Shown here one piece after another: positions 17,279-29,385 of a stretch of 64,000 nucleotides of DNA; the stretch's first letter is position 1, and every line of letters starts with the position of its first letter. The DNA is from Kribbella caucasensis (GTDB lineage: Bacteria; Actinomycetota; Actinomycetes; Propionibacteriales; Kribbellaceae): contig NZ_SNWQ01000001.1 of assembly GCF_004361855.1 (NCBI RefSeq), positions 558,001 to 622,000 of the forward strand. Reading direction: 5' to 3'. The position numbers were made by a program, and so were the translations under genes. The notes beneath the pieces are model-generated. The model was given only the letters and a program-made list of their open reading frames with translations, was not told the origin of the DNA and did not search any database.

Positions 17279-20200
17279 TCAGCCGTCGTGAGCCATGTCC
17301 ACAAACCGCGAGTAATGCCCCTGGAATGCGACCACCACATCGGCTGTAGGCCCGTTGCGGTGTTTGGCGACGATGAAGTCAGCTTCGCCAGGACGGGTGG
17401 ATTCCCGTTCATAAGCGTCTTCACGGTGCAGAAGAATTACAACGTCGGCATCTTGTTCCAAACTGTTATGTAAAGCAATTCCATTAGCAACGAAATTGTG
17501 AGTGCCGAGAACTGTCGCGTCGAATACTTCTTGTTCACCGATGCTTTCGATCTGGATTACGGAATCCCAGAAGATATCGTTTGTCGCAAGCAATTCGAGG
17601 TCTGCGACATCGAGGATCTTCGCCACATCAGCGAGTCTCTGCCGCGTAGGCGCACCGGCGAACACCCGGCCGGCATTACGCAGTCCGAGCGCAGCCCCGA
17701 GGGCAACCTGGCTCATCCCACGGTCGAGCATCGCCGCCTTCACTTGGTCCCAGACTTCAACGGGGACGGTGTCGAGCTTCGGCGCAGCCTTGATGTCTTG
17801 CAAATAGCCCACTAGTTCACGCACTGTGTCACCGCGTGAACCATGAACGCCGATCTCCTCGCAGAAGCGCCGATGATTGTCTACCCCGTGGATGTTCAGG
17901 TGATACGAATCGCGATAGCCAGACTTTCTCGCGACACTGATACGGCTGAAGATGTTGCATCTGAGGAGGAGACGCGCAAGATCGTCGACCATCCGCCGAC
18001 TGGTCGACGCGTAGTAGATCTGGGCGGTATTGATCTCGGGGCGCCAGCGGACTGAGCCGTCGGTGGCCCAGAGGTGGCGGATGAAGGTGGCGATCTGGTC
18101 CTTGGGGAGGCCGAAGACGGCGTCGGGGATGAACTTCTCGTGACTGCGGAGGCCGAACAGACCGAGGCCGTCGAGCCAGGCTGCGATCGGGTTCCGCTTC
18201 CCGCGGGCGAGCCGGTACGGCGCCGGCAGGCGGAGCGTGGTGACCCGGGCGGCGGCGTACTCGTCGCGGATGGGATTGATACCGAACCGGCGATGAGCGG
18301 CCGAGGCGACCGCGTCGAGGTTGTGCTCGTCGATACTCGCGTACCGGATCGGCTGCCGCTTCACGAACGAACCGTCGCCGAGCAGATGCGCCAGCAGAAC
18401 GACTTCGTCCTCGTCCCACGGCTTGACGTCCAGCGGTGCCGGTACGTGTCGGAGCGATCCGACGCGGGAGCTGGGGACCAGTTCACCCAGCGGTTTCCAG
18501 CCGTCGTATGTGAGGAATGGGTGGTTCGCGGTCGCCTTGATCTCCCGGCCGGACGCGAGCTTCAGCCGGAAGACCTCCTTCACACCGCTGGAGAAGGCGT
18601 GCGTCATCGTCCTCGGCACCAGCTTCAGCCGGTCGTCGAGCGACCAGACCGGGATGTCCCGCGCATCCGTGGAGAGCAGTTCGCCCAACGAGATCTCGGC
18701 GCCAGTGTCCGCTCGCAGCAGTCGGGTGTCCGCGGTGAGGCAGCCGGATTCACGGAGGTCGGAGGCCATCGGGCGTTTGTCGGAGCGTTGTTCGGAGCCT
18801 CGGTTCAGCTGGCAGATGGCTACTACGGGGAGTTCGAGTTCTTTGGCCAGGAGCTTGATGGAGCGGGAGAACTCGGAGACTTCGAGCTGGCGGGACTCGA
18901 CCTTCTTGCCGGAGGTCATCAGCTGGAGGTAGTCGATCACGATCAGGCGGAGGTCGTGGCGCTGCTTGAGGCGACGGGCCTTGGCGCGGATCTCCATCAT
19001 GGTGAGGTTCGGGGAGTCGTCGATGAACAGCGGCGCCTCGGAGACCTCGCCCATCTTGCGGGCCAGCCGGGCCCAGTCCTCGTCGGTCATCTTTCCGTTG
19101 CGCATGTGGTGCAGCGGGACCTTGGCCTCGGCCGACAGCAGTCGCATGGTGATCTCGTTGCGGCTCATCTCCAGCGAGAAGATGCACGAGGTCAGGCCGT
19201 GCTTGATCGACGCCGACCGGGCCAGATCCAGGCCAAGGGTGGAGTTGTGGGTCGGGATCATCGTCTTGCCGGCCAGGTACAGGTGGTCGGGGTTGTCCAC
19301 CTCGACACAGCGGACCGGGACGCTCTCGACCGGTTCGATCCACTCGAGCCGGCGGTCGCCGTCACCCTGCACGCCGACGGGGACGCCGTGGCCGGTGATC
19401 TCGCGCAGCGCCGAGCCGGGGATCGCGGGGGTCAGGCCGGGGACCGCAGACATCACCGTGAACAGGTCGGACGTCGTGCAGACCACCGGGCGGCCGCCAT
19501 CCTCGACGCGCCACTGGTGCTCGGCGTCGGCGACGATCGTGCTGCTGTCGGAGAAGGTGAGCCGGAAGCAGGGCCGCTCGACCATCACCTCGGTCGCCGC
19601 CACGACCATGGTCGGCAGGCCGTCGGCGTCCAGGAGCTCGTCGCCGACGGCAACTTCTGCCATCGTCGTCCAGCCGGTCGGGGTCGGCAGCGGGGAGTCG
19701 AGGGCGAGCGCCTTCCCCATCGCGGGACGGGCGGCGACGATGATCATCTGACCCGGGTGCAGGCCGTTGGTCAGCTCGTCCAGATCGGTGAAGCCGGTGG
19801 GCACGCCGACCATCGCGTCACCGCGGGAGTCGATCGCCTCGATCTCGTCGAGGGCGCCCTCCATGATGTCCTTCAGCGGGGCGTAGTCCTCGGTGGTGCG
19901 CTTCTCGGTGACCTGGTAGATCTCGGCCTGCGCCTCGTCGACGACATCGTCGACCTCGCCCTCACCGGCATAGCCCAGCTGGACGATCTTGGTGCCGGCC
20001 TCGACCAGGCGGCGCAGGATCGCCTTCTCCCGCACGATGTGCGCGTAGTACCCGGCATTTGCCGCGAGCGGGACCGAGGCGACCAGCGTGTGCACGTACG
20101 GCGCGCCGCCGATCCGGGCCATCTCGCCGCGACGGGTCAGCTCGGCGGCGACGGTGATGGCGTCGGCCGGCTCGCCCCGGGCATACAGATCGGTGATCGC

Positions 20201-20407
20201 GTCGAAGACGATCTCGTGCGCCGGCCGGTAGAAGTCGGTGCCGCGGATGGTCTCGATGCAGTCGGCGATCGCGTCCTTGCTCAGCATCATCGCGCCGAGC
20301 ACGCACTGCTCGGCCGCCAGATCCTGCGGTGGGGTGCGGTCGAAGCCCATCGCCGGGTCGCGCTCCTCGGCGCCACCCTGCCCCCCGCGGAACTCCGCCA
20401 CGCTCAC
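17279..20407 (-). CDS. dnaB: replicative DNA helicase DnaB with two inteins
   Basis: The 1042-residue precursor would yield about 460 residues of DnaB after removal of inteins at residues 233-388 and 556-981. The N-terminal domain (QDLAAEQCVLGAMMLSKDAI...) is followed by the RecA-like motor: Walker A ARPAMGK|S, interrupted by intein 1; Walker B LRLIVIDYLQLM; and DLRESG|S, interrupted by intein 2. It ends EADFIVAKHRNGP...SRFVD. The GTG at 20407 is chosen because GAGGAGG lies eight bases upstream. The hexamer unwinds DNA at the fork. Without splicing neither the P-loop nor the C-terminal motif is continuous, so activity should depend on both events. The first 21 C-extein codons are unusually AT-rich in third positions. 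Confidence 0.97.
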   Translation of the reverse strand: MSVAEFRGGQGGAEERDPAMGFDRTPPQDLAAEQCVLGAMMLSKDAIADCIETIRGTDFYRPAHEIVFDAITDLYARGEPADAITVAAELTRRGEMARIGGAPYVHTLVASVPLAANAGYYAHIVREKAILRRLVEAGTKIVQLGYAGEGEVDDVVDEAQAEIYQVTEKRTTEDYAPLKDIMEGALDEIEAIDSRGDAMVGVPTGFTDLDELTNGLHPGQMIIVAARPAMGKALALDSPLPTPTGWTTMAEVAVGDELLDADGLPTMVVAATEVMVERPCFRLTFSDSSTIVADAEHQWRVEDGGRPVVCTTSDLFTVMSAVPGLTPAIPGSALREITGHGVPVGVQGDGDRRLEWIEPVESVPVRCVEVDNPDHLYLAGKTMIPTHNSTLGLDLARSASIKHGLTSCIFSLEMSRNEITMRLLSAEAKVPLHHMRNGKMTDEDWARLARKMGEVSEAPLFIDDSPNLTMMEIRAKARRLKQRHDLRLIVIDYLQLMTSGKKVESRQLEVSEFSRSIKLLAKELELPVVAICQLNRGSEQRSDKRPMASDLRESGCLTADTRLLRADTGAEISLGELLSTDARDIPVWSLDDRLKLVPRTMTHAFSSGVKEVFRLKLASGREIKATANHPFLTYDGWKPLGELVPSSRVGSLRHVPAPLDVKPWDEDEVVLLAHLLGDGSFVKRQPIRYASIDEHNLDAVASAAHRRFGINPIRDEYAAARVTTLRLPAPYRLARGKRNPIAAWLDGLGLFGLRSHEKFIPDAVFGLPKDQIATFIRHLWATDGSVRWRPEINTAQIYYASTSRRMVDDLARLLLRCNIFSRISVARKSGYRDSYHLNIHGVDNHRRFCEEIGVHGSRGDTVRELVGYLQDIKAAPKLDTVPVEVWDQVKAAMLDRGMSQVALGAALGLRNAGRVFAGAPTRQRLADVAKILDVADLELLATNDIFWDSVIQIESIGEQEVFDATVLGTHNFVANGIALHNSLEQDADVVILLHREDAYERESTRPGEADFIVAKHRNGPTADVVVAFQGHYSRFVDMAHDG
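17465..18742 (-). other. DnaB intein 2: C1-type intein with LAGLIDADG endonuclease
   Basis: The 426-residue intein sits at DLRESG|C...HN|S, the same site as the known cyanobacterial DnaB intein. It begins CLTADTRLL; block B is ATANHPFLTYDGW; block F is EVFDATVLGTHNFVANG; and it ends IALHN with Ser as +1 residue. The endonuclease core has LLAHLLGDGS and FIRHLWATDGS. An XRE-like helix-turn-helix (MSQVALGAALGL) precedes the C-terminal splicing block. The C-terminal half has visibly lower GC than the N-terminal half. Confidence 0.93.
19244..19711 (-). other. DnaB intein 1: class 3 mini-intein in the P-loop
   Basis: The 156-residue intein interrupts Walker A between GK and S. It starts with alanine (ALALDSPLPTPTGW), so it has no N-terminal nucleophile. 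It carries the class 3 W-C-T set: Trp in ADAEHQW (block B), Cys in VPVRCVEVD (block F) and Thr in PTHN (block G). The +1 residue is serine. No endonuclease domain is present. Confidence 0.9.
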
Positions 20408-24621: not shown

Positions 24622-26467
24622 GCCGCTGCTCCTCGTTCTGCTGCTCCCATTGCGGGACCTGCGGAGCCGCCGGCTGCGGCGGCCCCGCCTGCGGCCGACC
24701 GGCCGCCACCCAGGCGTTCGCGCCACCGCCCTGGGGAATGGCCGCCTGCGCCGCGCCCGGGTCGTACTTCGCGAACGAGGCCTTCACCGCGGGCGCGTCC
24801 GGACGTGCCATCCACGGAACCGTTCTGATCATCGTCGCCGGGATTCCCGACGGGAACACCACGGCCCGTCCGGGCGGCATCGAGGCCAGATCGGACACCT
24901 CCATGATGTGGTGCCGCTGGGTCTGCCGGCTGGTACCCCGCTCGCCCTTCTGGTACGAGACCGAGCTGGACACGATGTCGTAGTCGCCGATCAGCTTGCT
25001 CAGCCGCTCGAGGAAGTTCGCGTCGGACACACCGCCGCCGTACACCCGGATGTTCGCGGCCGACCAGAGCTTCTCCATCCCGCGCTCACCCCAGCACTCC
25101 ATCCCCTGCGCCCAGGACTGCAGGATCGTCATCAGCACGATGCCGCGGGAGCCGTAGTGGCTGTACAGGTCGGGCAGGTTCTTCCAGCGGCAGACGTTCG
25201 CCGCTTCATCCAGGACGCCGACCAGCGGGCTCGGCATCCGGCCCATCGGGCAGGTCTTCGCGTAGTCCTCGGCCGCCTCGACCACGGCCACCGTCATCGC
25301 GGTGACCAGCGGGCCCGCGGTACCGGCGCCTTCCTTGGACAGGCTGTACAGCGTGCCGCCCTCGCGGACGAACTGGTGCGGGTTGAACTGCGGGCGGTTG
25401 TCATTCGGCCCTTGCGGGGTGACCCAGCGGGTGACGGTGCGGTTGATCAGGAACTGCGCGCTCTGCTGGGCCGTGCCGTAGACACCGGCGCGCTGCTTGT
25501 CCGGCGCGTTGATGACACCGGCCAGCGCGTGCGCGGACAACTCCAGACCGGGGGTGTTGCGCAGGATGCGCTCCGGCTCGTCGTTGCGCTGGTCCGCGAG
25601 CCAGCTGTAGACCTGCGTGATCGGGCGCTTGGCAACCGCCGCCGCCAGCAGCAGGCCGGCCAGCAGATCGGTGCCGGCGGCATCGAAGAACGCGTCCGTC
25701 TGGGCGCTCTCCTTGCGCTGCGACGCGACGAAGTGCTCCGCCAGCTCACGCGCCTTCACCTCGTCGACGACGTAGCTGAGCGGGTTCCACCACCAGTTCG
25801 GCTCCTCGGCGCACACCTCCTGCGGGTCGAACACCCAGACCGGCCCGAACTTCTCCCGCGGGCCGCGGGAGGCGTCCACGATGTCGCGCTTGTTCGAGGT
25901 GGCGATGACGGCACCGGGGGCGTCCAGGATCGCCGGTACGGCGCGGGAGGTGGTCTTACCGGTTCGCGGACCCCAGATGTCGACGTGCATGTCTTCCCAG
26001 GAGCCGAACACCTCGAGGTTGTCCCGTACGGTCCGCCCGATCAGCACCCCGGGTCCGGCGTGACCGGCGCCGAGCCGGTTCGCGATCTCCTGGGCGCCCT
26101 CGCGGGTGATCTTGCGGATGTCCTGGCGCTTCGACATCAGCATCGCGGACTTGTCCACCCGGGACGACTTGCCCTGATTCCGGCGGACCAGGAAGAAGCC
26201 GAGCCCGACCAGGCCGCCGAGCAGCAGCACCTCCAGCAGCAGCATGGCGGTGGCCACGCCGGACCAGCGGGTGGTGCCGTCCATCAGGTCGATCAGGGCG
26301 CTGACCGGATTACCCGAGACCGGCCGGGTGTCGTTGATCGCGGCTGCGATCTTGAGCGAGGACCAGACGCCGCCGAGCACGATGGCGAACAGGCCGATGC
26401 CGATGAACACCAGCACCGACTCGACGGACAATCCGCCGGGACCGGTGCTCTTCCTGCCTTGTGCCAC
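24611..26467 (-). CDS. VirD4/TraG-like type IV coupling protein
   Basis: The 618-residue membrane ATPase has two N-terminal helices (about residues 17-38 and 70-92). A motor domain carries Walker A WGPRTGKTTS and Walker B LVGVLDEAANVC, with RWKNLPDLYSHYGSRGIVLMTILQSWAQG after it. A proline- and glutamine-rich C-terminus follows. Coupling proteins recruit substrates to type IV secretion channels. The start codon GTG overlaps the VirB4-like stop by one base (TAGTG). No relaxase accompanies it, so its substrate may be protein or be encoded elsewhere. Confidence 0.9.
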   Translation of the reverse strand: MAQGRKSTGPGGLSVESVLVFIGIGLFAIVLGGVWSSLKIAAAINDTRPVSGNPVSALIDLMDGTTRWSGVATAMLLLEVLLLGGLVGLGFFLVRRNQGKSSRVDKSAMLMSKRQDIRKITREGAQEIANRLGAGHAGPGVLIGRTVRDNLEVFGSWEDMHVDIWGPRTGKTTSRAVPAILDAPGAVIATSNKRDIVDASRGPREKFGPVWVFDPQEVCAEEPNWWWNPLSYVVDEVKARELAEHFVASQRKESAQTDAFFDAAGTDLLAGLLLAAAVAKRPITQVYSWLADQRNDEPERILRNTPGLELSAHALAGVINAPDKQRAGVYGTAQQSAQFLINRTVTRWVTPQGPNDNRPQFNPHQFVREGGTLYSLSKEGAGTAGPLVTAMTVAVVEAAEDYAKTCPMGRMPSPLVGVLDEAANVCRWKNLPDLYSHYGSRGIVLMTILQSWAQGMECWGERGMEKLWSAANIRVYGGGVSDANFLERLSKLIGDYDIVSSSVSYQKGERGTSRQTQRHHIMEVSDLASMPPGRAVVFPSGIPATMIRTVPWMARPDAPAVKASFAKYDPGAAQAAIPQGGGANAWVAAGRPQAGPPQPAAPQVPQWEQQNEEQRRGW

Positions 26468-29385
26468 TAGTCCTCAACTCCCGTTCTGGCGACCACCCGC
26501 GTGGCCGGGTCGGGTGGCGGCAACTGCGCCGGGCCGTCGAAGCCGTACTCCGCGACGACCTCCTCGGTACCGTCCTCGGCGATCTCCACCTTCATCGGGC
26601 GGCCGTCCTCGCCGGTCTTCCAGAGCTTGTTGGTGTCGTTGATCTCGCGCTCGACCGAGGTCAGCCCGACGTGCACCGGGATACCCGGCCGGCCACCGAC
26701 CTTGACCAGGAAGTTGCCTCGTCCGGGCGGCGCGGCCTCCTCCCCGGTGGCCGGGTCCCAGGCCGGCGGGTCCTGCCAGCCGATCAGCATGTTCTGCTCT
26801 TCCTCGGACAGCGGTACGACGGCGGTCAGGTTCTCCATCTCGGCGCGCGGCAGACCACCGCAGATCACCATGCCGGACCGCTCGACGAAACCCTTCGCCT
26901 TCATCCGGTCCTCCGGGTGCTCGAGGGCCAGCAGGTCGGACATGGTGTGCGAGATCATCGCCATCCCGACACCACGCTGACGGTTCAGCCGGGTCAGCGC
27001 GTCGACCCGGTCGACCAGGCCGCGACCGGCCCGCAGTACCCGCCAGAGCTCGTCGAGGATGACGAAGTAGTGCCGCCGGGGCTCCAGGCCGGCGTCGGCC
27101 AGCGCCTGGGAGACGGCGACCGCGCCGAAGCCGTAGGACCAGCAGGCGAGCAGCACGGCGGCCTGCAGGTTGGTCTCGGAGTCGTCGATGTTGGACACGT
27201 CGAAGACGACCGGGCGGTCCATCTGCATCGGGTTGTCGGTCTGCTCGGAGAAGATCTCGCCGAGCCGGCCGCCGCCGACCAGACCGATCATCGAGGCCTC
27301 CAGGCCTTCGGTGACCTCCCGGTAGCGGTCCATGCTGCCGCGGTCCAGGGCGACGTTGCGGACCCGGTCCGGGGCGTCCTGGATCACCTTCAGCAGGTCC
27401 CGCAGTACGGGCGTGCCGTGGGTGTGGCGCTCGTCCAGCACCTTGAGCGCCTCGTCGATGATGGTCTCCTCGCGGTCCGAGGGAGGCGCGGAGCGCATGA
27501 TCGAGATCAGCGCGGAGACCATCGTCTGGCGGCGGCCGTGCGCGTCGGCCTGGATCGCCTGCCGGGCACTGCCGGTCAGCCGCAGCGCCGCCCCGCGAGA
27601 CTCACCGGGGTCCAGCACGTTGAGGTGACCGCGACCGCGGCCGAGCTGGATGACCTGGCCGCCGAGCGCCTCGATCAGGTCCTTGTAGTCGGGCTTGAGG
27701 TCACCCAGTACCAGCGGCTGGATGCCGTACCCGGCCATGCCGAGGGCCATCCGGCGGGTGATCGTCGAGTTATGGGTGGTGATGAAGGTCCGCCCAGCCA
27801 GGTACAGGCCGTCGGCGTTCGCGACCTGGATGCATCGCACGGCCCTCGATGCCACCTTGCGAGCCGCAACCACATAGCGGCGTGAAGTACGAGCAGGCTG
27901 ACCGACAGTCCGTTCCGCGTGGACAGCAGCTTTCCGCTGGAGCCCGAACACCTCGTCCGTGGTGGTGAAGCCGATCTTCCACACGGGGCCACAGTCTCGG
28001 CCATTCAGCATCGCCCGGCCTTCGCGAAGGGTAGGCCGGTAGCCGAGGCTGGCGACAAGTTCGAGGACATTCTCGGCCAGCCCCCGGCAGGTAGAGGTGT
28101 ACTGGACTTGCCCACCGGCCGGGGAGACCGTGCCATCCGTGTCGAGCAGGCCGGCCAGAAGTTCTCGCCGCTGTCCATCCGATGCACGCAGGTACGACGC
28201 AGGGATGTGCTTGTTGCCCAGCACGCCGAGTTCTCGAAGCACCTCCGTCAGACCGACGCCCTTCTGCCGGTAGGTCCCCGGAATCGACAGCCGGTAGAGC
28301 AGGTGGCCGTTCGGCTCGCACTCGATGCCAGCCGCCCGGATCCGATCGACAATGCCCTGATCAATCGTCGTCAGCCTTGGCGCTGCGCTGTGTCCGTCCC
28401 CGAGCCAGGCACCGAGCACATACGGATCGAGCGGCAGTTGCGCCTCGGGCAAGGAGAGACCTGGCATCACGCGGATGGCGTGGTTGGCCTTGCCACCGGC
28501 CGTCAGCGTCGCCGCGATCTGCGCGGTGGTGATCGGCGTATTATCCGGCGTCCGAGCCCGCTGATCGTTCTTCGTCCTGCGCAGTGCCTCATCGACTGCG
28601 CTGATCAGCGATGCCGCGTCGTACCAACGCCTGCTGCCATTGCTGCGGATCGGCTGCACCCTGCCGGCCCACCGATACACGGCGCTCTCGCGAGTGGTCC
28701 CATTCCAACCGAGGGCGCGGGTGAGGTCCCGGACCGAGACAGGCTCGTCTCCGAGCTTGGTCCGGGCGTCACCAACAGCTGCCAGCTCGGCCTCGGAGCC
28801 GGCCGCGAGACGCTTACGAGGAACATTCCGCTCGACCCAGTTCCGTCGCCGATCCTCAACCGTCTCAGTGCTCCACAGATGCTCCGCATCGGCGACGATG
28901 GTCTCGCCAGTGGAGAAGGTCAGCTCCCAGCATTCCCGGTCTGTCATCACCTCCGAAACGGCGACTACGGCGGTCGGTCGGCCATTCGCATCGAACACGA
29001 AGTCGCCTGGCTGCAGATCGGCCATCCGGCGGAAGCCGTCGGGGGTCGGGATTTGGGAGTCGACGTCGAGCGCTTTGCCCAGACCAGGCTTGCCGAGCAC
29101 GAACATGGACGGGTTCGAGATCAGCTTGGCCCGCATGAACCAGCTGATCGGGTCGCAGCACATGGTCGCGCCGGACAGGATGTTGCGGCCGATCGGAACG
29201 CCGACCATCGGAGACCCGGTACCGGCGGCGAACGGCCACATGCCGCACACCTGGACCGTCGTACCGCGCCACTCGGCGGGAGCCTGCAGGTAGGTCGAGT
29301 AGCCGGCGCCCATACCGGGCCAGCCCCGCGGCATCGGGCGTTTGCCGCCACGCAGCGGGTCGACCGGCTTCTTCTTCTTGCTCAT
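26467..29385 (-). CDS. VirB4/TraC-like ATPase interrupted by an intein
   Basis: The 972-residue precursor would mature to 537 residues once the intein at residues 105-539 is removed. Walker A is VLGKPGLGK|STITRR, split by the intein. After it come LVLGDLKPDYKDLIEALG, a region RTRNVALDRGSMDRYREVT-like in context, and Walker B HYFVILDELWRVLRAG with RQRGVGMAMISHTMSDL, typical of VirB4 C-terminal motors. The N-terminal VirB4 domain seems to be supplied by the separate SCO6880-like gene upstream. The ATG has GGAGGGAG before it. It would energise assembly of the secretion-like channel. Confidence 0.88.
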   Translation of the reverse strand: MSKKKKPVDPLRGGKRPMPRGWPGMGAGYSTYLQAPAEWRGTTVQVCGMWPFAAGTGSPMVGVPIGRNILSGATMCCDPISWFMRAKLISNPSMFVLGKPGLGKALDVDSQIPTPDGFRRMADLQPGDFVFDANGRPTAVVAVSEVMTDRECWELTFSTGETIVADAEHLWSTETVEDRRRNWVERNVPRKRLAAGSEAELAAVGDARTKLGDEPVSVRDLTRALGWNGTTRESAVYRWAGRVQPIRSNGSRRWYDAASLISAVDEALRRTKNDQRARTPDNTPITTAQIAATLTAGGKANHAIRVMPGLSLPEAQLPLDPYVLGAWLGDGHSAAPRLTTIDQGIVDRIRAAGIECEPNGHLLYRLSIPGTYRQKGVGLTEVLRELGVLGNKHIPASYLRASDGQRRELLAGLLDTDGTVSPAGGQVQYTSTCRGLAENVLELVASLGYRPTLREGRAMLNGRDCGPVWKIGFTTTDEVFGLQRKAAVHAERTVGQPARTSRRYVVAARKVASRAVRCIQVANADGLYLAGRTFITTHNSTITRRMALGMAGYGIQPLVLGDLKPDYKDLIEALGGQVIQLGRGRGHLNVLDPGESRGAALRLTGSARQAIQADAHGRRQTMVSALISIMRSAPPSDREETIIDEALKVLDERHTHGTPVLRDLLKVIQDAPDRVRNVALDRGSMDRYREVTEGLEASMIGLVGGGRLGEIFSEQTDNPMQMDRPVVFDVSNIDDSETNLQAAVLLACWSYGFGAVAVSQALADAGLEPRRHYFVILDELWRVLRAGRGLVDRVDALTRLNRQRGVGMAMISHTMSDLLALEHPEDRMKAKGFVERSGMVICGGLPRAEMENLTAVVPLSEEEQNMLIGWQDPPAWDPATGEEAAPPGRGNFLVKVGGRPGIPVHVGLTSVEREINDTNKLWKTGEDGRPMKVEIAEDGTEEVVAEYGFDGPAQLPPPDPATRVVARTGVED
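27769..29073 (-). other. class 3 intein with LAGLIDADG endonuclease in the VirB4-like P-loop
   Basis: The 435-residue intein lies at GLGK|A...THN|S. Its first residue is alanine (ALDVDSQIPTPDGF). The W-C-T set is present: Trp in ADAEHLW, Cys in AVRCIQVAN and Thr in TTHN. LGAWLGDG and LAGLLDTDG are the two endonuclease dodecapeptides. It resembles DnaB intein 1 in both splicing ends. Confidence 0.9.

Follow-up and report, generated by a model that had tools for sequence, protein, structure and literature searches.

Module exchange in a DnaB intein and synonymous divergence centred on its insertion site in Kribbella and two other genera

We analyzed 64,000 nucleotides of Kribbella caucasensis DNA (NCBI RefSeq assembly GCF_004361855.1, contig NZ_SNWQ01000001.1, positions 558,001 to 622,000 of the forward strand; this whole stretch is called the window, and coordinates are given in its numbering), in which the replicative helicase gene dnaB (17279..20350, minus strand) carries two inteins. 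The second half of intein 2 was exchanged with a different, AT-richer intein module of the same site, a conclusion that is strongly supported by incompatible trees of its two parts. Intein 2 is scattered over the species of Kribbella, and the dnaB codons that follow its insertion site have lost their vertical ancestry there, the loss being centred on the site. The same site is a centre of divergence in three genera, with differing asymmetry, and the C-exteins of intein-free controls do not show the effect. We lean towards recurrent recombination during intein gain and loss, replacing short flanks, as the process behind the site-centred scrambling.

Results

The comparison set comprised all 38 genomes found for the genus Kribbella, this one included, and dnaB was present in each (38/38). 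Intein 2 (17465..18742, minus strand) has 426 residues, from Cys1 to a His-Asn end, and interrupts the helicase at DLRESG|SLEQDAD; 26 of the congeners carry it and 12 do not. The extein parts are labelled N, M and C, where M adjoins the intein 1 site and ends before intein 2, and C starts at Ser+1. A species tree was built from gyrB and the N and M codons of dnaB, with gyrB pieces oriented by k-mer, and on this tree of 38 species the distribution of intein 2 needs at least 10 gains or losses.

Alignment of the 26 Kribbella inteins showed that they are alike over residues 1–250 and fall into two kinds past residue ~260. Type A (426 residues) occurs in seven genomes, including this one, and type B (427 residues) in 17. 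The intein of G006 is a relative of type A. That of G031 (L065:1915-2877, plus strand), with 321 residues, has lost much of the endonuclease and kept its splicing ends, which is degeneration within the genus; the A/B trees and the 25-carrier Mantel tests were run without it. Protein identity between the G000 intein and type B was 0.86–0.96 in columns 1–50 and 0.34–0.44 in columns 301–350. Likewise, the sister species G018 (type B) and G032 (type A) differ by 2–20% in DNA up to codon 260 and by 25–61% over codons 261–380. A single type A clade was rejected for codons 1–250 (log-likelihood difference 155; approximately unbiased test, p = 1.5e-54), whereas codons 261–380 split the 17 type B inteins from the seven type A inteins plus G006 at support 100/100; type A without G006 reached only 82/84. 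On the species tree, the type A label is scattered, with seven changes for seven rows. The breakpoint lies at about residues 250–265, near a change of composition at 18004. A preliminary description of this DNA had suggested an older intein-intein recombination, and the incompatible trees, together with the different modules at about residues 261–380, bear this out.

The two types thus have in common the GC-rich half, residues 1–250 (17993..18742, minus strand). The swapped module, residues 261–380 (17603..17962, minus strand), contains the end of the second LAGLIDADG repeat and most of a helical accessory (DNA-recognition) domain. Residues 381–426 (17465..17602, minus strand) form the last accessory helix and the C-terminal splicing segment; they are AT-richer in type A and correlated with module type (r = 0.62). 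The G+C fraction at third codon positions (GC3) over codons 261–380 was 0.67 (0.56–0.75) in type A and 0.90 (0.82–0.96) in type B, and 0.89 in both over codons 1–250. Because GC3 differs by type only past codons 1–250, the AT-richer half corresponds to the type A module and what follows it. Outside the genus, all 29 of the 29 inteins of the DLRESG|S site had B-like modules, as judged by eye in the best 29 loci. An outside source of the type A module was sought in 393 other genomes of the class, a sample without further congeners, where no match exceeded 48% over its 103 residues apart from a 54% match to a 40-residue piece. A recent phage or plasmid donor of intein 2 was not found either, every match in 23 phage and five plasmid records being below 60% identity.

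The composition of this gene was measured. Along dnaB, the first extein part has a GC3 of 0.93 and the 121 codons after it have 0.95; the value falls to 0.76 over the 46 codons that precede intein 2 (18743..18880, minus strand), and the last 21 of these stand at 0.71. Within intein 2 it is 0.88 in the first 230 codons, 0.64 in the last 190 and 0.45 in the last 40, and a cumulative sum placed the change point at 18004. The C-extein consists of 61 codons (17464-17282, minus strand) plus a stop; GC3 is 0.33 (7/21) in codons 1–21 (17402..17464, minus strand) and 0.70 (28/40) in codons 22–61 (17282..17401, minus strand). The preliminary description had reported a GC-rich first half of the intein with an AT-richer remainder from about 18050, and about one third against about 70% GC3 in the two parts of the C-extein; the measured values agree with both. 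It had also reported no shift in the 5′ flank, which does not hold, since a dip is present there, weaker than that on the 3′ side. The composition observation is therefore partly confirmed. The AT-richer part is uneven, in that windows of 20 codons from 18004 into the C-extein range from 0.30 to 0.80.

Among the 38 congeners, the value of 0.33 for C-extein codons 1–21 is the lowest (mean 0.744, standard deviation 0.132; z = −3.69 against the other 37), and all 13338 windows of 21 codons taken from the N and M parts of these genomes had values of 0.57 or more. AT-rich codons in intein-free orthologues had been named beforehand as evidence against an imported tract. In the 12 intein-free congeners, GC3 of these codons is indeed reduced (mean 0.72, range 0.57–0.90, against ~0.95 in the N part), but none is as low as 0.33. 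Five of the seven type A carriers have ordinary values (0.76–0.81). GC3 declines genus-wide, with or without the intein, over about the final 40 codons of M and through the C-extein.

Synonymous divergence around the insertion site was analyzed next. In 48 Kribbella pairs whose gyrB differs by less than 6%, the successive tens of C-extein codons showed synonymous codon differences of 0.46, 0.51, 0.40, 0.37, 0.42 and 0.28, compared with 0.01–0.33 in windows of the other extein parts and 0.03–0.23 in gyrB. The divergence is highest beside the insertion point and, in close pairs, decreases toward the stop. For 162 pairs with a gyrB synonymous difference below 0.15, the mean for C-extein codons 1–20 (C1–20; other parts are written likewise) was 0.50, whereas the median of 193 other 20-codon windows of gyrB, N and M in these pairs was 0.14, and none exceeded 0.26. 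The C1–20 difference stays flat at ~0.5 for backgrounds from 0.08 to 0.31, and these codons are synonymously saturated genus-wide. Mantel correlations with gyrB distance were 0.42–0.57 for N and M1–120, 0.23 for M121–167, 0.00 (p = 0.49) for C1–20, 0.18 for C21–40 and 0.14 for C41–61. Parsimony steps per conserved codon amounted to 12.3 in C1–10 and 11.4 in C11–20, compared with 3.0 in gyrB and 3.4 in N; no M window went above 6.4. The effect was present alike in pairs of carriers, pairs of non-carriers and mixed pairs. Over C1–30, even the congener closest to this genome, whether a carrier or not, differs from it at 47% of synonymous codons, and no donor of the flank was found among the 37 congeners compared.

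The 5′ side behaves differently. Codons −20 to −6 show low synonymous variation across the genus (0.05–0.18), with A-ending codons that are mostly not used by the outgroups.

As controls, we used 27 intein-free DnaB genes of the same order, which were all the outgroup loci found in 109 genomes outside the genus; the closest Kribbella pairs are closer than any control pair. Control C-exteins have a GC3 of 0.96–1.00. In background bins from 0.10 to 0.20, controls differed by 0.18–0.19 in C1–10 and 0.03–0.06 in C11–20, against 0.48 and 0.52–0.54 in Kribbella. The last five M codons of the controls were somewhat raised (0.20–0.34), and two of their M windows had a GC3 of 0.85–0.86, which makes the 5′ side of what is seen in Kribbella less distinctive than the 3′ side.

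Two other genera of the class, g41 and g44, provided replicates. For g41, 39 of 40 genomes were used (12 carriers), G515 being dropped as only a 5′ piece was found and G523 being kept despite a very long branch; on the tree, at least 10 intein gain or loss changes are likewise needed among these 39 species. A strong peak was observed, mainly 5′ of the site: pairs with a background below 0.05 differed by 0.56 at codons −10 to −6, 0.40 at −5 to −1, 0.28 in C1–5 and 0.02–0.05 over C6–40. GC3 dips at the codons of this peak. The Mantel correlation was 0.61 at −60 to −21, dropped to 0.20 and 0.25 at the site and returned to 0.60 at C21–60, but it was also only 0.29 at −110 to −61. For g44, all 12 of 12 genomes were used (six carriers), and the peak was modest: 25 pairs with a background of 0.15–0.20 differed by 0.31–0.44 from −20 to +40 versus 0.13 at −40 to −21, and 34 pairs of the next bin by 0.15–0.38 versus 0.14.

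Some further observations were made in these flanks. In Kribbella, the 20 codons before intein 2 (18743-18802 in the window; the same codons in L035-L071) are little varied in all 38 species, carriers or not, and their A-ending codons (CGA, GAA, CAA and AAA) stand in a GC-rich gene. In g44, an intein-free member (L168, G078) has a strongly AT-rich run in C-extein codons 1–22, like this genome. In g41 (L233-L271), the 5′ haplotype GAT CTT CGC GAA TCG GGC AGC is exact in five of 27 non-carriers (G320, G428, G504, G511 and G519), which are scattered on the tree, and several genomes hold further, less similar DnaB copies.

The codon of the residue that directly follows intein 2 was also followed across species. 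Ser+1, encoded by AGT here, is serine in 38/38 Kribbella genomes, and its codon switches between the TCN and AGY classes, each switch requiring two or more base changes. At least 12 such switches are needed on the Kribbella tree, whereas 37 other conserved Ser codons together need six, two of them at Ser−2. In g41 the classes at Ser+1 are split 14/25, and elsewhere the minority class reaches at most 2/39. The controls, which are more distant from one another, are mixed at Ser+1 too (6/27 AGY), and so are several of their other Ser codons. Codon association within the C-extein decays with distance (r = −0.156; p = 0.0002 and 0.0005 in two runs), and among 15 comparison windows from gyrB, N and M, each 60 codons long, only one showed a comparable decay. 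We moderately favour replaced tracts over scattered mutation as the source of the switches and of this decay.

Codon class was further compared with carriage. In g41, AGY at Ser+1 was found in 0/12 carriers and 14/27 non-carriers (Fisher p = 0.0026, relatedness ignored). Nine independent pairs differ in codon class, and the five that also differ in carriage all point in the same direction (5/5; sign test p = 0.0625). In g44, AGC was found in 6/6 carriers and 2/6 non-carriers (p = 0.06), and in Kribbella AGY was found in 10/26 carriers and 3/12 non-carriers (p = 0.49). Resistance conferred by AGY and co-conversion of the +1 codon predict the same g41 pattern, and the Kribbella data support neither.

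Discussion

Intein 2 is often gained and lost at the DLRESG|S site, in Kribbella and in the two other genera. Under the explanation that we lean towards, a gain or loss would proceed via a double-strand break or homologous recombination. Each event may also swap a short flanking tract, ~20–150 bp, for that of another lineage. Repetition across the genus would wipe out the vertical signal by the site and mix old haplotypes, and poor codons carried along would lower GC3. The AT-rich 21 codons of this genome would be the most extreme product, with no single identifiable donor behind them. We infer co-conversion as the agent; the likeness to co-conversion is kept, and the claim of a demonstrated case is dropped.

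Several observations weigh against this explanation. C1–20 distances are uncorrelated with those of the intein 3′ end (Mantel r = 0.11, p = 0.14–0.15) or of intein residues 1–260 (r = −0.19), so flank and intein do not move as one tract. In the pairs G013/G037 and G016/G021, synonymous divergence is 0.12 and 0.23 in intein residues 1–260 and 0.55 and 0.60 in C1–20; G008/G024 is reversed (intein 0.43, C1–20 0.10), and G001/G004 shows no excess (0.26 and 0.26). The relation between C1–20 haplotype and module type (r = 0.17, p = 0.06) is not taken as support. When a tract of 279 bp, comprising the intein end and the C-extein, was compared with the 393 other genomes of the class, the best-scoring of the matches listed outside this genome was 74% identical over 267 bp, and the highest identity among them was 78% over 169 bp. 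The flank haplotype was found neither shared with nor linked to an arriving intein or a donor. The Kribbella 5′ flank is little varied rather than scrambled, its last five codons (0.34–0.42) lying hardly above the controls of matching bins (0.20–0.34), and the single closest pair of g44 lacks a peak. Decay of codon association within C1–20 alone is not significant (p = 0.08), and overall codon association (rbarD) is significant in N and M as well. Furthermore, a study of mobile introns (PMC5378118) points out that conversion among members of one pool is not expected, on its own, to lift diversity over the level in the rest of the gene.

That study also proposes mutagenic repair for mobile mitochondrial introns. 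Applied here, intein-free alleles would be cut repeatedly and mended with errors, leaving AT-biased point changes by the cut, of which purifying selection would spare the synonymous ones. This would account for excess diversity in the absence of a donor, for the lower GC3, for an effect that intein-free species show as well and for a flank unlinked to the intein. However, a change of Ser+1 class by single steps among its two or three base changes would pass through Thr or Cys, yet serine is found in 38/38 genomes; the distance-decaying codon association suggests tracts, though only over the whole C-extein; divergence out to codon 50 is far from the cut; and the little-varied 5′ side is unexpected. 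We regard mutagenic repair as unlikely. An arms race by silent recoding would make favoured synonymous changes in the target render intein-free alleles uncuttable, to which the intein would answer by exchange of its DNA-recognition module (A versus B). This would fit the finding that Ser+1, at the insertion point, changes codon class more than any other conserved Kribbella Ser, the absence of AGY from the g41 carriers with agreement of all informative independent pairs, and the AGC of all g44 carriers; moreover, part of what was swapped is an accessory domain of a kind that influences cleavage in another intein, according to the text available for PMC8966425. Against it stand the missing association in Kribbella and the weak one between module type and C1–20, the opposite codon classes of carriers in different genera, a sign test in g41 that falls short and a pattern there that co-conversion of the +1 codon would also yield, the reach of the divergence far past a plausible recognition site, and the mixed Ser+1 of intein-free controls. 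Homing endonucleases are also said to tolerate single synonymous changes, as far as the accessible part of PMC3024317 goes. Such an arms race is quite unlikely in our view. The wider picture of the site as a silent-codon battleground, in which hosts recode Ser+1, the intein swaps its accessory module, and helicase codons are scrambled across genera while the protein stays unchanged, we hold to be rather unlikely.

Two simpler accounts fare worse. The preliminary description had explained the composition by one homing event, in which an AT-rich tract was copied from a donor into the extein. The AT-richer, though uneven, run from ~18004 via the intein end to C-extein codon 21 and the extreme value of C1–21 among the 38 species speak for such an event. 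Yet the scrambling is genus-wide and also occurs without the intein, five of the seven type A carriers lack an AT-rich C flank, and neither the 37 congeners nor the 393 other genomes of the class yielded a donor, which makes a single event very unlikely. As a whole, the earlier interpretation is partly supported: flank replacement at a homing site stands, as a recurrent genus-wide process, and the single simple event does not. Ordinary relaxation of codon selection at the 3′ end of the gene, with the intein irrelevant, would account for the drop in GC3 that carriers and non-carriers share at the end of M (~40 codons) and in the C-extein. However, divergence peaks beside the insertion point and declines toward the stop in close pairs, the C-exteins of the 27 intein-free outgroups show nothing, the g41 peak lies on the 5′ side, and in some pairs flank divergence exceeds the synonymous divergence of the intein itself. 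Relaxed selection is largely refuted by the controls, and we consider it highly improbable.

Recurrent recombination at the site can be compared with known systems, here as far as the accessible parts of the papers describe them. For mobile introns (Repar and Warnecke 2017, PMC5378118), diversity climbs toward the insertion site of an endonuclease-driven element, as here, and the candidate mechanisms, co-conversion with outside donors or mutagenic repair, are shared. That work concerns group I and II introns of yeast mitochondria within species, with both sides similar; in contrast, the present case is a bacterial chromosomal intein compared between species of three genera, with asymmetric divergence that includes element-free species and with class switching at Ser+1. 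On transfer of the plant cox1 group I intron (PMC3192709), the flank is replaced by donor sequence, as proposed here, with extended co-conversion reported in recent transfers, whereas no donor is visible here and the flank is not linked to the element. Among haloarchaeal inteins, those of MCM and polB (PMC10643990, PMC3024317) home through gene conversion, and in MCM a flanking residue is rarely co-converted; those studies deal with homing and flanking amino acids, not with synonymous flank divergence as here. No report of site-centred synonymous divergence around an intein was found in the open-access literature, subscription papers being mostly outside the search.

With respect to the module swap, the TliVMA intein and PI-TkoII (PDB 7qss, 2cw7; PMC8966425) have the same order of splicing domain, LAGLIDADG domain, accessory domain and C-terminal splicing segment. 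According to the accessible part of that paper, their accessory domain resembles helix-turn-helix DNA-binding proteins, and its removal from TliVMA alters the cleavage profile. Unlike in those inteins, two natural versions of the module segregate here at one site in one genus. With the site fixed and the accessory module swapped by nature, an experiment on what this domain recognises is already at hand, and natural alleles make it directly testable whether selfish endonucleases provoke silent target-site resistance. If homing inteins do scar their flanks silently even in intein-free lineages, past activity could be read from intein-free genes, and conserved genes, dnaB among them, would show local distortions of their codon bias and gene trees.

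Other features of the locus

The likely start of dnaB is the ATG at 20350, the frame being open from 20536, and the product matches Pfam DnaB and DnaB_C. Judged by its sequence, intein 2 is a LAGLIDADG homing intein of class 1 type at the DLRESG|S site of DnaB, with the endonuclease within the splicing domain, and it is predicted to splice and to cut the empty site. It matches Pfam Intein_splicing and LAGLIDADG_3, and the N-terminal Cys, the C-terminal His-Asn and Ser+1 are all present; Cys1 and the final His-Asn are invariant across 36 aligned inteins. GDG at residues 122–124 and TDG at 227–229, at least 90% conserved in the 36-sequence alignment, are what we take to be the two acidic catalytic positions of the endonuclease. 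An AlphaFold model, whose input alignment of 36 sequences drew 22 from the 26 Kribbella inteins and 14 from the 29 others, reached a mean predicted local distance difference test score of 91.6 and a predicted template modelling score of 0.89. In the model, the splicing domain is followed by the endonuclease, a small helical domain (helices within 330–387) and the C-terminal splicing strands. Its best PDB matches are the homing inteins TliVMA, PhoVMA, PI-PfuI, PI-TkoII (presumably entry 2cw7) and PI-SceI, with TliVMA (7qss) the best at a template modelling score of 0.73 and 19% identity; the host here is DnaB. The Ssp and Npu DnaB inteins (PDB 1mi8, 4o1r), which we assume to occupy the same DnaB site as intein 2, are 35–39% identical to its splicing domain over ~100 columns; unlike intein 2, these chains of ~140 residues have no endonuclease part.

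Intein 1 (19244..19711, minus strand) lies in the P-loop (GK|S), starts with Ala and, with 156 residues, is too short for an endonuclease. It is present in 35 of the 38 congeners and absent from G003, G007 and G030. In G014 and G028 (L048 and L062) it has 413 instead of 156 residues, a long form at the P-loop site that presumably includes an endonuclease. The intein 1 site was considered as a second case of the flank effect and dropped, since M1–10 was equally raised in intein-free controls (10 controls). Intein sites are named here by flanking sequence and not by labels of the DnaB-a/-b type. The label DnaB-b is probably wrong for the intein 2 site; in the accessible part of PMC5050341, DnaB-b denotes class 3 inteins without an endonuclease, a usage that fits intein 1 better.

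A third intein of ~435 residues was found at 27769-29073 (minus strand; coordinates by eye), inside an open reading frame at 26467-29385, and it has a LAGLIDADG_3 match. Its host, a large gene with no other Pfam match, is interrupted by it in the P-loop (GLGK|S), where a match of 82 residues to the start of dnaB intein 1 begins, with 52% identity.

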